From an uncultured Bacteroidales bacterium (lineage in GTDB: Bacteria; Bacteroidota; Bacteroidia; Bacteroidales; UBA3824): a DNA stretch of 33,992 nucleotides. Made by a program: the position numbers and the translations under genes. Positions 11,708 to 24,788 of this stretch are shown one piece after another; the first letter of the stretch is position 1; each line of letters starts with the position of its first letter. The notes beneath the pieces are model-generated. The model was not told where the DNA came from and made no database searches. It saw only the letters and a program-made list of their open reading frames with translations. The stretch is taken from contig CAMJWL010000015.1 in assembly GCA_946409405.1 (NCBI GenBank), forward strand, positions 1 through 33,992. Reading direction: 5' to 3'.

Positions 11708-14926
<3,219 letters not shown>

Positions 14927-14930
14927 GGTT

Positions 14931-14958
14931 TTAGAGATTAAAGATTAGAGATTAAAGA
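14931..14958 (+). repeat. Perfect tandem duplication of a 14-base unit (2 x 7)
   Basis: TTAGAGATTAAAGA occurs at 14931-14944 and again at 14945-14958 without any change. Each copy is itself two similar heptads, TTAGAGA and TTAAAGA. A degraded copy (TTTTAGA, TTAAAGT) continues in phase at 14966-14979. It begins 4 bases after the beta-galactosidase stop codon. Confidence 0.9.
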
Positions 14959-15015
14959 GTAAGGTTTTTAGATTAAAGTTTAAACTTTTTCTACCTTACT
15001 CTTTAATCTCTTTTT
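14947..15015. terminator. 19-bp perfect hairpin between convergent genes, probable bidirectional terminator
   Basis: AGAGATTAAAGAGTAAGGT (14947-14965) and its exact reverse complement (14993-15011) flank a 27-base loop. A T-run (15011-15015) follows on the plus strand. The left arm is built from the purine-rich heptads. It ends beta-galactosidase transcripts and may also end those of the phosphatase gene. Confidence 0.7.
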
Positions 15016-15016
15016 A

Positions 15017-15072
15017 CTTTCCTCTTTCCTCTTTCCTCTCTCCTCTCTCCTCATTCCTCCTTCCTCTTTCCT
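15017..15072. repeat. Heptanucleotide microsatellite, eight units of CNNTCCT
   Basis: Eight consecutive 7-base units follow without a gap: CTTTCCT three times, CTCTCCT twice, CATTCCT, CCTTCCT and CTTTCCT. Every unit fits CNNTCCT. On the minus strand this reads AGGANNG, a purine tract. Its upstream end (minus strand) abuts the TGA stop of the phosphatase gene. The tract is one-strand pyrimidine apart from a single A, so triplex (H-DNA) formation is possible. Confidence 0.9.
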
Positions 15073-17354
15073 CAAACCCTGATTCCTACGAGGGTCATGT
15101 CGTCTATTTGCGGCAGTGTGCCTTGCCATTGTGCTATGGCATGTTCGAGGAGCGCATATTGATCGTCGGTGTCTTTGTCGGCGATGAAGGAGAGCAGCGA
15201 CGTAAGGTTTTTTTGCAGAAATTTGCGCCTTTCGGGGCCGCCGAGTTGGTCTTGGATGCCGTCGGAGAAGGTGTATATCATGTCGCCTTTTTGGAGGGGT
15301 AGTGTTAACGACTGAAAATGCTCCTTCTCGTGTACGTAACGTCCCACGGGCATCACGTCGCCTTTTAGTTTGATGGCTTCGCCGTTGCGGATGATGTAGG
15401 CGGTCTGTGCCGCGATGGCGTAGTGCATTATCATCTGTTCCATGTCAAAGCAGCAGATGGTCATATCCATGCCGTCGTCGATGTTTCTGTTTTTTTGCGA
15501 CGGTGTAAGCGTGCTCTTTATAAAAATTTTCATCTTGTCGAGTACGATGCCGGGGTTTTGGGCGTCGTATTCGGAGACCATGTATTCTTTAAGACCCGAA
15601 AGTCCGAGCATGGAGAGAAACGCGCCGGGGATGCCGTGTCCGGTGCAATCGGCGGTAATCATCACGGCGTATTTGCCGCAGCGTCCGCAACGGTAAAAAT
15701 CGCCGCTCACTATGTCCCTTGGGCGGTAAAACACAAAACTGTCGGGGAATATCGCCCTTACGTCTTCTATTGTTGATATGGCGGCGCGTTGTATGCGTTG
15801 CGCGTAGTTGATGCTGTGGATTAGGTTTTTGTTGACGGCCTCCACTTCCTGCCATTGCTCTGTGATGATGTTTTTCTGTATTGCGATTTCGTCGCGCTGC
15901 TTTTCTATTTCTGATTTCTGTTGGTTGAGCGTTTGGTTTTTGAGCGTCAGCACCATGTTGTTACGCTTTCTTATTTTCAGGCTTCTCGTGATGTAAAACA
16001 CCAATAGGCATATCAGCAGCAGCACTACGCACAGCAGTATTATGCTAATCCATAGTTTGCGTTTTTCGAGGAAGTGTAGTTCTTCGGCGTGCCGGCGGTC
16101 GTTGTTTTCTATTATCATAGCCTGTTCGGTCTTCAAGGTGGCGAGGGCAGCCATTGTGCTGTCGTTGATGAAGGCGTCGTTGTATTCCATCTGTTTCATT
16201 ACGCACTCGTAGGCGTTTTTGTAGTCGCCGAGCAGGAAGTAAGCGTCGCGCAGTTTGTCGTAATAGTTGCGGAGTTTCAGTTTGGTGGTCTCCTCGTCAA
16301 AATATTTGCGGAGGCGTTGCAGAAAATTCAAGCCCTCGCGGTATCTTTTGTAATATTTGAAGTATTCAAAGTAAGTGTAGCCTATTGTGATGGCGTTTTC
16401 ATAACGGTTTTGCTTGATGAGGTAGTCGAGGCTCTGCTTGAGGTACGTCAGGCAACTGTCGGCGTAGAGGTCGTTGTGTGTGTCTTTGGCGAGCGTGATA
16501 TATACTTTGGCAAGGTCGCCGTATGCAAGATATTTGGTGGAGACGTAGAACGAGTTGCACGAATTGATGCGTTCAAAGATGTTGATTGCTTTCAGGAGGT
16601 ACTCTTTTGTACGCACAAGTTCGTCGGTGGTTCTGGCTGTTTCGCAATATACTTCGCTAAGCCTGTAATAGCAACGGGCGTATTCCAACGTGTCGTTGAT
16701 TAGCGAATCCAAGCGCAGAGCCTCGCGGATGCATTTTTCACATTCGCTGTAGAAATGTTTGTCGAGGTATATTTCCGACATGTCTATGTAGCATTGGGCT
16801 ATTTTGAAGGTGTCTTTTTGCTTCATGTCTATCTCCATCGCCTGATTGATGCAGTAGTTTACGCTGTCGGAGATGTTGAGTTTGTCGTATAGTTTTGACA
16901 TCAGGCGGTAATTGTGTTCTATTGAGGCGGAGTCGTGTATTTGTTTGTAGAGATAGGTGCTGCGGTGCAGGTACGGCAGAGCCATTTTGGGGTCGTCGTT
17001 CATCCAATATCCCCAGGCGATGTACCTCGTATTGTCGGCGATGAGCAGCGTGTCGGTTTCCTTGCAGTGATTGAGCGAGAGGAAGGCGTATTTGATGCAC
17101 GAATCCACGTTGCTCACCAGGTACGACACCATGCAGTACTTTTGGGCTTTGATGCTGTCGGGCGTGTCGGGATGGATGCTCGCCAGGATGCTGTCGATTT
17201 CCTGTTGCTCCTGGTTGTCGTCCTGTGCGGACACCGTAACAGGCAACAGCATCATCAACACAAACAACACCACACGGAAAAAAGTTGGCAGACCGCGCCT
17301 TTTTCCGGAGTTGAAGTGTACGTTTGTTTGATAAAAGGTAGCCATACTTGTCAT
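15072..17354 (-). CDS. Membrane TPR-SpoIIE (PP2C-type) serine/threonine phosphatase
   Basis: 760 residues from the ATG at 17354. A signal peptide or anchor (about 25-45, ending VSAQ) is followed by a periplasmic TPR array (about 55-400), one membrane segment (about 434-455), a coiled coil (about 460-510) and a cytoplasmic SpoIIE-type PP2C domain. Metal ligands are present: D552 (IVSGDFY), D569 (ADCTGHGIPGAF) and D698 (FSDGIQD). This layout suggests a receptor that senses something outside through the TPRs and dephosphorylates a cytoplasmic protein, such as an anti-anti-sigma factor; no such partner is encoded nearby. A TTG at 17375 would extend the frame, but it lies inside the probable promoter. 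The gene is divergent from the PorE-like gene. ATG at 17345 is an alternative start. Confidence 0.87.
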   Translation of the reverse strand: MTSMATFYQTNVHFNSGKRRGLPTFFRVVLFVLMMLLPVTVSAQDDNQEQQEIDSILASIHPDTPDSIKAQKYCMVSYLVSNVDSCIKYAFLSLNHCKETDTLLIADNTRYIAWGYWMNDDPKMALPYLHRSTYLYKQIHDSASIEHNYRLMSKLYDKLNISDSVNYCINQAMEIDMKQKDTFKIAQCYIDMSEIYLDKHFYSECEKCIREALRLDSLINDTLEYARCYYRLSEVYCETARTTDELVRTKEYLLKAINIFERINSCNSFYVSTKYLAYGDLAKVYITLAKDTHNDLYADSCLTYLKQSLDYLIKQNRYENAITIGYTYFEYFKYYKRYREGLNFLQRLRKYFDEETTKLKLRNYYDKLRDAYFLLGDYKNAYECVMKQMEYNDAFINDSTMAALATLKTEQAMIIENNDRRHAEELHFLEKRKLWISIILLCVVLLLICLLVFYITRSLKIRKRNNMVLTLKNQTLNQQKSEIEKQRDEIAIQKNIITEQWQEVEAVNKNLIHSINYAQRIQRAAISTIEDVRAIFPDSFVFYRPRDIVSGDFYRCGRCGKYAVMITADCTGHGIPGAFLSMLGLSGLKEYMVSEYDAQNPGIVLDKMKIFIKSTLTPSQKNRNIDDGMDMTICCFDMEQMIMHYAIAAQTAYIIRNGEAIKLKGDVMPVGRYVHEKEHFQSLTLPLQKGDMIYTFSDGIQDQLGGPERRKFLQKNLTSLLSFIADKDTDDQYALLEHAIAQWQGTLPQIDDMTLVGIRV

Positions 17355-17372
17355 TAATTGCAAATATAAAAG

Positions 17373-17404
17373 CAAAAGTATTAATTATTTTTTGGGTGAT
17401 GAAA
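17373..17404 (-). promoter_or_regulatory. Promoter of the TPR-SpoIIE phosphatase gene
   Basis: On the minus strand TTTC (17404-17401), one mismatch from TTTG, is followed by 20 bases and TACTTTTG (17380-17373). A second -7-like box TATATTTG lies at 17368-17361. Transcription from either box would start too late to include the TTG codon at 17375, which favours the ATG at 17354 or 17345. Confidence 0.5.
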
Positions 17405-23000: not shown

Positions 23001-23180
23001 CCCGCCCTCGAAATCACTATCTATGAGCCGTACAAATCCACCGCCGAAGCCCGCATTGAGGAAGTGAAAAAGGCTTTTGCATCGGTGGTCAATGGGGAAG
23101 AGGATAGGATAACGACCATAATTAAAGTCGGCAAGAGCAAAGTGGAAGTAAGGGTGTTGGAGGCGGCAGTAGGGGAGTAG
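20070..23180 (+). CDS. PorE-like TPR/PD40/CRD paralogue lacking the OmpA domain
   Basis: 1036 residues from ATG 20070; a TTG two codons upstream is less likely. A signal peptide (1-19, QISSAQ) is followed by KLQRAFDMIYKGG, matching the upstream protein's KLKKAYALLRAGE. Helical TPR-like repeats run to about residue 420. PD40 blades follow (ISPDGTRLYL near 445; EYSPVLAADNKTLYF from 765; GTDIYMCKRMKDDSWAHWSAPVNLG parallels the neighbour closely), then a CRD (about 865-945). The last 90 residues show no OmpA motif (no FDFD, no HTDN). Instead they end in a short alpha/beta segment with repeated ITTIIKVGKSKVEVRV strands. It probably works with the upstream protein, which alone can bind peptidoglycan. 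Its specific partner is unknown. The 3' end is 16 bases from the convergent ATPase gene. Confidence 0.8.
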   Translation: MRVLILILTLILTAQISSAQKLQRAFDMIYKGGDTLAAQKILKKSLKKHREIYAAYYGLGLCAMSSNPKEAFNIFKKVDAKFRISAKDFKKYMLVNYGITRDSAVYKINEIAAAQLRRTIMKDSSERGFAAFIRTFKGCDQKFINRATVLMEEAAYREAKKDQTLAKAKQFTANYPYSRRLNYIMEFIDSVEYYKRLENGNRVSLFKYIDAYERGKLFSLKSERIQLRNSLKKEYYTQAGLLYEYLRPKDRLDDEFVNNWCKEVYYSGHWQRLRFLYDRLPHVMVDTMRQMYYAGIYAEVNFAMQELWSYYGNGTEEFYAHKDSIYDFYIRRGAPSRLALRRMQELYKDYMINGQIDSVLAVINRYEPLFPNFKGEIDDLKRLLSENKDSCRRVRLPDVINEPPLSKPIIKYLDVNGRRVPYIANTIQFGEFKLFDSNNRYPVISPDGTRLYLTHWDYKTYKVKKKIEYVHIKSGKRIVDEYVTTDTVKSGIGVCYSDFKDGRWQQLKRIDELFKQDSIFMDTISYGPFFYSMKNYDDVPTRIALQFVRDKSINAERTDEIGVYYIGEKPRVVDSVTTFTSGISADNNVMYVVRPEKLQWGTPRIDSNDPRDYVCSKVVEASNNMGPDKWSEPRMCGKLNHYYEAVRERNPHPYFGSMNAHPSPDNKTLFFAAGREGVPGYREGFTVPVIVYGRRKIEMASAELYMHPFDPKVLEKSPKLYSDKVPLPKNQPRFYPDLWFSVRDENGVFSYPVNLGPDVNTEYGEYSPVLAADNKTLYFVSNGRTGIGGTDIYMCKRMKDDSWAHWSAPVNLGKYINTPYDEHDFSITADGKTAYYTSEEPLTHRQIVYKVDLPMIFRPDTIAIYKGKIINLSGEPVNATIRVNDDLNKRVYAQYRTQPNGEFYFGLPQDRPYRFVITAKNCASATDTLGCSSAMSIVKRHDWVLPDSVGVFEKHLPFVYDPEDGVSEIPFLKNYDIPALEITIYEPYKSTAEARIEEVKKAFASVVNGEEDRITTIIKVGKSKVEVRVLEAAVGE

Positions 23181-23196
23181 TTACCCCCGAAATGTG

Positions 23197-24528
23197 CTAC
23201 ACCAATCCCCCGAAATATATTGGCAGACAACTCGTTTCGTCTTCCTTGCGATAATCTTTTGTGTATAGCAAAATTCTGTCTCCAATACGTGAGTGGAACT
23301 TTTCGCAGAAGGCATCTAACGATTTGTGCGACTTGTACCCTGATGATTTTACCTCTATCGGCACGAGTTTGTTTTTGCGCGAGAGAAGAAAATCTATTTC
23401 GTAGTTGTGCTTTCCGTTTTCAGTCGGGAAAGTGTAGTAATACAATTTGTTGCCAGATGCTTTGAACATTTGCGCCGCGAGATTTTCGTAAATGTAACCT
23501 AGGTTCGCGTCGAGTTTGTCTGTCAGGAGTTTTTCGTAGATGATGTTGTCGGTGTAGTCCTTGTCCCAAAAACATAACGTTACAAATAGTCCCGTATCTG
23601 CAAGGTAGATTTTGTAAGCGTCAAGCGAGTAGTTTAAGTTCATTCCGACGTGTGGGTCGGTAACGTGATATGCAACGTTAATCACTTTGCTTTCTGCCAT
23701 TTCGGAGACGAGGATGTTGGCATTGTCGCCGCGTCGCAGGTCTGTCGCCGACGAAATCATATAGCGCGATGCGTTGCCTGAGAGTTGGGCGGGGATGTTT
23801 TTGAAAATTGCCGATGCCTGTCCCGATGTGTCAATTTTGTTGAAATCTACATCGTAAAGACTTAGTATTTCGCGCTTTACGTTATCTACATCTTGAAGAT
23901 TGTTGGTTTTGATATATCTATCAACGGCTTGCGGCATACCGCCTACAAGCATATACAGTCGTAGGTCGCGCATCCAAAGACGATGTACGGCGTTGCCGGC
24001 GGCGCGTTTCATATCGTACATTTGGCGTTGTTGGTCAGGGGTAACGTCGTTGCCAATTGCCCAATAAAATTCTTCCAAATCCATCGGATGGAGCGTCATT
24101 TTCATTTCTTCGCTTGGTATTACGATGTTTTGGATGTTTTTGCGAATTGAGATTAGAGAACCTGTCTCAATGTAGTCGTAGCGTCCGTCTTTTACCAAAT
24201 GTTTGATTGCCTGACGCGCCAAAGGTTGGTTCTGCACTTCGTCAAAAACAATAACAGATTGACGTTCAAAGAGTTTTACTTTGTAAATCCCTTGCAGAGA
24301 GAGGAAAAAGTAATCCAAATCCATCATATCTTCAAAAAGTCGGTTCACTTGTGGCGATGTTTTGGAAAAGTCAATTAGAATGTACGATTTGTACTCTTTT
24401 TTTGCAAAAGTTTCCGCCAAAGTTGATTTGCCGACGCGACGTGCGCCTTCTATAAGAAGTGCATATTGCCCCTTCCATTGTTGCTTCCATTGAAGCATTT
24501 TGTCGTATAGTTTGCGCTTGAAAATCAT
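23197..24528 (-). CDS. AAA ATPase with DUF4143 and PD-(D/E)XK-like C-terminus
   Basis: 443 residues, cytoplasmic. Walker A G28-ARRVGKS (K34, S35), Walker B VIVFD96-E97, and a sensor-like ETGSLISI segment define the ATPase. A central helical part carries a winged-helix-like region. The C-terminal DUF4143 has the nuclease-like triad D379 (YEIDFLL), E392-x-K394 (PIEVKSS). The family is abundant and mobile in Bacteroidota and archaea, often near toxin-antitoxin or surface genes; its biochemical function is unsettled. Here it stands alone, convergent with the PorE-like paralogue. Its promoter is embedded in a 33-bp tandem array, suggesting autoregulation, though that is inference. The start MIFKRKLYDKM is typical of the family. 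Confidence 0.88.
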   Translation of the reverse strand: MIFKRKLYDKMLQWKQQWKGQYALLIEGARRVGKSTLAETFAKKEYKSYILIDFSKTSPQVNRLFEDMMDLDYFFLSLQGIYKVKLFERQSVIVFDEVQNQPLARQAIKHLVKDGRYDYIETGSLISIRKNIQNIVIPSEEMKMTLHPMDLEEFYWAIGNDVTPDQQRQMYDMKRAAGNAVHRLWMRDLRLYMLVGGMPQAVDRYIKTNNLQDVDNVKREILSLYDVDFNKIDTSGQASAIFKNIPAQLSGNASRYMISSATDLRRGDNANILVSEMAESKVINVAYHVTDPHVGMNLNYSLDAYKIYLADTGLFVTLCFWDKDYTDNIIYEKLLTDKLDANLGYIYENLAAQMFKASGNKLYYYTFPTENGKHNYEIDFLLSRKNKLVPIEVKSSGYKSHKSLDAFCEKFHSRIGDRILLYTKDYRKEDETSCLPIYFGGLV

Positions 24529-24555
24529 AATGCTGTAATTATTTAGTTTTCAGGG

Positions 24556-24586
24556 CAAAGATAATATGTTTTGCAGTTTTCTCAAA
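24556..24586 (-). promoter_or_regulatory. ATPase gene promoter whose -33 box lies in the first 33-bp repeat
   Basis: On the minus strand TTTG (24586-24583), 19 bases, TATCTTTG (24563-24556): a full consensus match. The TTTG belongs to the TTTTGAGAAAAC core of the promoter-proximal repeat unit. The leader to the start codon is about 20 bases. Confidence 0.7.
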
Positions 24587-24702
24587 ATTTTTTTCTCTGA
24601 AAATTGCAGTTTTCTCAAAATGTTTTTTGTCAGAAATTGCTGTTTTCTCAAAATGTTTTTAGCCGATTTTTGCAGTTTTCTCAAAATGTTGGTGTTTTGA
24701 AA
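24571..24702. repeat. Array of four exact-period 33-bp tandem repeats
   Basis: Units start at 24571, 24604, 24637 and 24670, exactly 33 bases apart. Each opens with TTGC(A/T)G followed by TTTTCTCAAAATGTT. The first 18-21 bases are nearly invariant: one substitution in unit 3 and one missing G in unit 1. The last 12 bases diverge between units. The array fills most of the space between the divergent ATPase and flavodoxin-like genes. It is too short in both repeat and spacer for CRISPR, and is better described as iteron- or operator-like. Confidence 0.93.
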
Positions 24703-24788
24703 TTGTAATATGTTGATTATCAATTGTATTTGTAATGCTTTAAACTTCCATCAAAACTGCGCGTCAAATTTAAAAAAAATGACTGCAA

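Follow-up and report, generated by a model that had tools for sequence, protein, structure and literature searches.

A tandem repeat array before a DUF4143 ATPase gene of an uncultured Bacteroidales bacterium as a candidate private operator

Introduction

Why is a bacterial ATPase gene preceded by a row of four near-identical 33-bp units, and what reads them? The question is raised by a contig of an uncultured Bacteroidales bacterium, of which a stretch of 33,992 nucleotides (hereafter the window, meaning the whole stretch of DNA that was analysed) carries such an array just upstream of a gene for an AAA/DUF4143 ATPase. A sequence-only reading of the window had pointed out the array and proposed that it could be the ATPase's own binding site. 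The encoded protein matches a model of PDC-S01, which PADLOC lists among its single-gene phage defence candidates. PDC-S01 is described as the fusion of an ATPase with a PD-(D/E)XK member and is reported to rank fourth in frequency among the defences of all prokaryotes, and validation is still pending for most PDC candidates (PMC12988326). In rumen genomes it is the most frequent individual defence locus, with 10,358 occurrences (PMC13356809). The parts of these two accounts at hand mention no upstream array.

Results

Four 33-bp units lie upstream of the ATPase gene

The four tandem units described in the sequence-only reading were confirmed; they begin at positions 24571, 24604, 24637 and 24670 and are spaced by exactly 33 bp (Table 1). 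In the output of Tandem Repeats Finder, the array appears twice, as a row of period 33 bp (score 150) and as one of 66 bp (score 172). Its self-match score at lag 33 is 55, whereas none of 184 dinucleotide-shuffled versions of DUF4143 upstream regions reached 16. The near-invariant left part and variable right part that had been claimed for each unit are likewise evident: a single A/T substitution, in unit 3 at column 5, interrupts the otherwise uniform columns 1–18; at column 19, unit 1 has T where the other three have G; and the letters of columns 25–30 are free, with ~12 variable bases per unit. The array lies 42 bp upstream of the start of the ATPase gene. Since this gene is on the minus strand, the core TTGCAGTTTTCTCAAAATG reads ACATTTTGAGAAAACTGCAA in gene direction, and the unit at 24571–24603 is the promoter-proximal one, nearest to the gene.

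The core is not scattered over the genome. In the 3.56-Mb, 300-contig assembly, matches with 0–1 mismatch occur at the four units only; three further matches appear at three mismatches, as many as were obtained with a reversed control pattern. The argument that all units present the same face of the helix holds only approximately: the 33-bp period stands, but with 10.5 bp to a turn it amounts to 3.14 turns, and each unit is rotated by ~50 degrees relative to the one before.

Table 1. Positions of the array, the ATPase gene and associated features in the window
Feature	Positions	Strand	Basis
Array, four 33-bp units	24571..24702	-	repeat calling and self-match
Predicted -33 box TTTG in promoter-proximal unit	24583..24586	-	sequence; Bacteroidota-type promoter
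Predicted -7 box TATCTTTG (TAnnTTTG)	24556..24563	-	sequence and cross-locus count
AAA_14 + DUF4143 ATPase gene, 443 aa; matches PADLOC PDC-S01	23197..24528	-	Pfam, PADLOC
Walker A GARRVGKS (residues 28-35)	24424..24447	-	alignment
Putative winged helix (residues 237-309)	23602..23820	-	predicted secondary structure, AlphaFold2 model; variability
PD-(D/E)XK-like motif E348, E377, D379, E392, K394	23347..23487	-	alignment
Stretch absent in same-genus genome G399 (37 bp, array, promoter, gene, 24 bp)	23173..24739	.	flank comparison

Three known kinds of element were considered and rejected. Firstly, the array is not a CRISPR array: no unrelated spacers separate the repeats, which are 33-bp units with ~12 variable bases, and a Pfam scan of 14 window ORFs (part of the window's ORFs) found no cas domain. 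Secondly, for replication iterons, the tandem direct repeats are present and binding by the neighbouring protein is presumed, but the neighbouring genes carry AAA_14/DUF4143 and FMN_red domains and no Rep domain (Pfam). Thirdly, an Rfam search at E≤1 for an RNA element returned three matches, all far under their gathering scores.

Elsewhere in the window, positions 14931–15073 hold short tandem repeats with a 7-bp period (TTAAAGA and CTTTCCT types). On one side lies a beta-galactosidase gene (11723–14926, +), on the other a SpoIIE-domain gene (15072–17375, -), which faces the repeats with its 3' end.

The gene encodes a predicted ATPase-nuclease

The earlier assignment of the gene to the AAA/DUF4143 ATPases was upheld by Pfam (AAA_14, 78 bits, cut-off 27; DUF4143, 61 bits, cut-off 28.1), and the PDC-S01 model of PADLOC matches residues 1–439 (E 1.5e-90, 302 bits). 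Across 50 aligned proteins, residues G28, R30, G33, K34, D96 and E97 are invariant, as are the five residues of the nuclease motif; judged from the alignment, the Walker A/B and PD-(D/E)XK residues of the window protein are intact. The AlphaFold2 model (mean pLDDT 88, pTM 0.89) predicts an ATPase domain, helices, the putative winged helix (of which residues 252–266 are modelled with low confidence) and a C-terminal alpha/beta domain that holds the nuclease motif.

Among the structural matches listed, the best are the archaeal ATPases 2qen and 2fna, followed by CED-4/NLRs and then ORC/Cdc6; the modelled ATPase fold appears to resemble archaeal Walker ATPases, STAND and ORC proteins. The matched chains (2qen, 2fna (SSO1545), CED-4, plant NLRs and ORC/Cdc6) differ from the window protein in being matched without the C-terminal DUF4143 part. 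We know of no array for archaeal Walker ATPases, CED-4/NLRs or ORC/Cdc6.

The promoter-proximal unit overlaps a predicted promoter

We take TTTG and TAnnTTTG to be the -33 and -7 promoter boxes, and TTGACA and TATAAT to be the -35 and -10 boxes, as in the respective consensus sequences. In the window, the TTTG of the last unit lies 19 bp from TATCTTTG. Across 72 loci not titled Bacillota (the window included, two titled merely 'Bacterium'), TAnnTTTG is present within 75 bp before the start codon in 65, against none of 72 in-gene control stretches. TTTG or TTTC lies 18–20 bp ahead of it, mostly 19–20, in 56 of these 65 loci, a figure that concerns box spacing alone, the position of TTTG inside a unit being established for the window. 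At several Bacillota loci, the units cover the -35/-10 region and extend to the start codon; at two of them (L127 and L136), one unit spans the interval from TTGACA to TATAAT.

Arrays are found at the starts of orthologous genes

Orthologues were taken as the best 80 of 316 relatives (58–78% identity in the best segment, with upstream DNA), and an array as a lag score of at least 16 within 250 bp upstream of the start codon (174 bp for L134). The presence of an array upstream of orthologues, which the sequence-only reading had suggested as a check, was borne out. With lags of 14–70, an array was found in 73/80 orthologues and a best lag of 33 in 66/80, both together in 63/80; 133 other long-ORF starts in the same loci gave 18, 5 and 3, respectively, and all three of the latter belong to L070 and L071, loci with a neighbouring ATPase of the same kind. 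With lags of 20–60, 72/80 orthologues have an array, compared with 10/281 windows elsewhere in the loci and 2/640 dinucleotide shuffles, and the period is exactly 33 in 65 of the 72. The number of units per array varies from about 1.5 to 5.6.

It is the frame of the unit, more than its letters, that persists. The core of the window array, expected upstream of orthologues in general, is kept in the nearest relatives (L058 and L059); in L060–L062 (69–74% identity), other letters stand in an unchanged frame. Distant relatives have a frame like AAAnATTTTGnG, followed by letters of their own (10 of 88 upstream regions, with a lag-33 score below 12, were left out of this comparison). The 68 arrays compared yield 52 different 13-mers (13-base unit parts), and unit letters are largely private to each gene. 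Mean 13-mer similarity climbs with protein identity, from 0.41 to 0.86. Overall, unit and protein are correlated (r 0.40; 0/999 permutations as high), to an extent that shared ancestry would by itself produce as well. Residue-by-base covariation did not indicate the winged helix: in the 55 arrays used (effective number ~30), the top pairs owe their rank to single outliers.

The repeat period largely follows the protein clade

A period of 23 was first met in four genes: L016 and L214 (Bacteroidota), and L177 and L192 (class of G295). When 119 genomes were searched for this 23-bp subfamily, 19 of them yielded a total of 27 places; four loci had no usable ORF and were left out, and the best lag was 23 at all 23 usable places. 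In the second clade, which these genes form, the best lag is 23 in 26/26 genes, 24 of them at a score of at least 16 (L016 and L230 are one gene, and one protein pair is identical). Loci with the 23-bp period in this second DUF4143 clade are L016, L177, L192, L214, L222–L239, L242, L243 and L245–L247.

In a FastTree phylogeny of 149 proteins, a single change is enough to account for the labels 23 and 32–34, and 0/500 shuffles gave a number as low. The tree holds 41 of the 81 orthologues (every second one), and 72 of its 149 rows are unlabelled (score below 16 or another period); three short sequences, six duplicate loci and L156 (best period 33, score 15; removed in error) were left out. Five rows labelled 32–34 fall outside the main 32–34 clade. 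To a good degree, then, the repeat period appears to follow the protein clade.

Relatives of the ATPase also occur in 46 mobile records (36 plasmid, 10 phage). Eight plasmid- or phage-scaffold relatives among these were examined, and the best lag is 33 or 66 in 8/8. Arrays are clear in Agathobacter (Bacillota), Collinsella (Actinomycetota), two Segatella (Bacteroidota) and one scaffold; they are weak in Glaesserella (Pseudomonadota; 22 at lag 66, 16 at lag 33), Bacteroides (16 at lag 66) and another scaffold (13 at lag 33). The 33-bp period therefore recurs in Bacteroidota, Bacillota and Actinomycetota, and weakly in Pseudomonadota. The spacing tracks the protein more closely than the host, which makes most sense if the protein is its reader.

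Paralogues and the wider DUF4143 family

The window's own genome (G000, a 3.56-Mb assembly) contains 27 DUF4143 matches (L008–L034). Direct or inverted upstream repeats with a score of at least 16 are present at 20 of its 22 filtered genes, including the window gene (L027); two of the others, L013 and L014, are nearly the same gene. Unit letters mostly differ between these genes of one cell, and the genome thus seems to hold a large set of paralogues with separate candidate operators.

Outside this genome, repeats of the same score precede 20 of 70 sampled DUF4143 genes (from Bacteroidota, the class of G295 and four further genomes), or 17/66 when four loci already among the orthologues are removed (L150 = L124, L152 = L109, L153 = L131, L155 = L098). 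The sample as a whole was reduced from 111 loci to 92 by setting aside 16 without an ORF that passes the motif filter (some of which, e.g. L031 and L034, show repeats by eye) and three with short upstream regions. Repeats are found at 40 of the 92, against 10/264 control windows, at least three of which adjoin other DUF4143 genes (L013, L015, L016), and 0/184 shuffles. The low count outside the genome, just 20/70, indicates that the rule is confined to some subfamilies: it is strong in some, and weak or absent elsewhere, with many genes lacking repeats.

In a clade of ~385-residue proteins, 4/10 genes have an inverted repeat (score at least 16) near the start codon (L008, L009, L195 and L198).

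Discussion

The array as a probable private operator

We consider it probable, at roughly 70%, that the array is a private operator, by way of which the ATPase binds and regulates its own gene. Support at the level of sequence comes from the array itself, its conservation at orthologues, the gene-specific letters, the clade-typical period, the promoter overlap, the protein motifs, and the joint absence of array and gene from the same-genus genome G399; from these we infer which protein binds (the ATPase), how binding acts (by repression) and that defence depends on release. The putative winged-helix region probably contacts the units, with one protomer or dimer per 33 bp, and a multi-unit protein complex would form along the array. 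Since the promoter-proximal unit of the window holds the -33 box, a protein bound there would keep the gene's own promoter off. A potentially harmful ATPase-nuclease would thus be held at a low level, to be released by its ATP state or an invader's signal.

A more complete picture, which we put forward tentatively, is that of PDC-S01 proteins as one-gene systems, each with an address of its own. The protein would park on the array, silencing the promoter and keeping the nuclease in check; displacement or titration, for instance by invading DNA or through a changed ATP state, would lead to both expression and attack. Drifting letters would insulate dozens of paralogues from each other, and the spacing of 33 or 23 would reflect the oligomer geometry of each clade.

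The proposal that the array may be the ATPase's own binding site survived the check at orthologue starts that had been set as its refutation test, and gained support from the agreement of period and protein clade. Arrays without an ATPase had not been foreseen. Neither these solo arrays nor the unit copies found downstream of some genes are explained by autoregulation alone, and the downstream copies do not fit a simple promoter operator.

Possible gene turnover at the array

In a rival reading, the array is mainly a gene-turnover site (the end of a mobile module made up of one gene, or the place where such a module lands or recombines), and promoter control is secondary. We regard this as unlikely, and likewise the corollary that the mobile module has the form array-gene, sometimes array-gene-array. 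Four sets of observations speak for turnover. Firstly, in G399, the flanks of the window locus (73–80% identity) lie 4 bp apart, and the array and gene together have no counterpart; this absence fits gain or loss alike. Secondly, otherwise similar loci differ by the gene while the array is kept: the flank and array of L058 and L269 are 98% alike (L269 has one unit fewer), those of L082 and L276 are 96% alike, and the gene is present in L058 and L082 only. Thirdly, units recur downstream of the gene in 9/67 loci from about four lineages (0/134 in-gene stretches), and in G403 unit copies are also found behind the gene. Fourthly, there are the ATPase relatives in plasmid and phage records.

Solo arrays also occur within the genus. 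A two-unit, window-type pattern gave 17 matches in 18 same-genus genomes, representing 14 distinct arrays, and no control matches. An ATPase lies behind the array in 5/14 and none in 9/14 (of these nine, one is at a contig edge and two are one locus in two genomes).

Several details argue against turnover as the main role. No target-site duplication is visible by eye at the window junctions, and the breaks do not share one position: in the window the break lies 37 bp beyond the array, in L058/L269 it is 8 bp before the start codon, and in L082/L276 it is just past the last unit. In G400, the array is followed by what appear, by eye, to be the first codons of the ATPase gene, as would result from an ordinary deletion; this remnant suggests that solo arrays can be what deletions leave behind. 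Moreover, 58/67 loci have no downstream unit copy.

Two further observations concern individual loci. Downstream unit copies in the same orientation were recorded at L063–L066, L069, L072, L079, L088, L089 and L280, and at L079 the duplicated stretch, by eye, takes in DNA outside the array. L289 (G411:C253) has a solo array whose promoter looks intact, followed by a 315-aa ORF beginning 292 bp after the array start, with an N-terminus that we presume to be Fic-like; another gene may have taken over the operator here.

Host factors and slippage as less likely explanations

Less probable still is that the units are bound by a host factor other than the ATPase, such as RNA polymerase, a nucleoid protein or another regulator. 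The double role of the last-unit TTTG as -33 box and the persistence of solo arrays would be in keeping with such a factor. However, a common host factor sits poorly with unit letters that vary between genes of one cell, with a 33-bp period that recurs across phyla with different promoters, and with a period that follows the ATPase clade; nor is any neighbouring ORF family shared by more than 6 of the 81 loci. Finally, a functionless minisatellite kept by slippage is very improbable: tandem repeats can grow in this way, and unit number does vary, but slippage accounts for neither the clade-typical period, nor the preferred distance to the promoter box, nor the enrichment at the start of the ATPase gene.

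Relation to known systems and implications

The private operator that we favour has relatives among known systems. Plasmid iterons are tandem direct repeats, two to three helical turns long, that adjoin the gene for a presumed self-controlling binder. The window array is like them in adjoining, as tandem direct repeats, the gene of a putative binder; it differs in lying on a chromosomal contig and over a promoter, in the lack of a Rep domain (Pfam), and in letters that are largely private to the gene. In toxin-antitoxin operators, a harmful protein is kept low via repeats over its own promoter, and the genes are gained and lost. A possibly harmful protein and promoter repeats are shared with the present case, whereas here a single gene is involved and no partner protein was seen.

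A third comparison is with BrickBuilt of Porphyromonas gingivalis, intergenic 23-nt tandem repeats with promoter activity, described as a MITE (PMC4596501). It comes from the same phylum, Bacteroidota, and has the same period as the second clade; the main text of that account does not mention an ATPase (PMC4596501). The BrickBuilt unit could be a captured array. Among the openly licensed papers that the literature searches listed, no title or start of an abstract points to arrays of the present kind.

Operator arrays and iterons are known kinds of element, and what appears new is the combination of gene-private letters and a clade-following period at a very common ATPase-nuclease. For PDC-S01, the parts of the published accounts at hand report no functional test. 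A period of 33 or 23 could serve as a marker for subfamilies, and private arrays could explain how one genome accommodates 27 DUF4143 matches without cross-talk. The DNA ligand of each protein would be predictable from its upstream sequence, which would make an orphan family directly testable.
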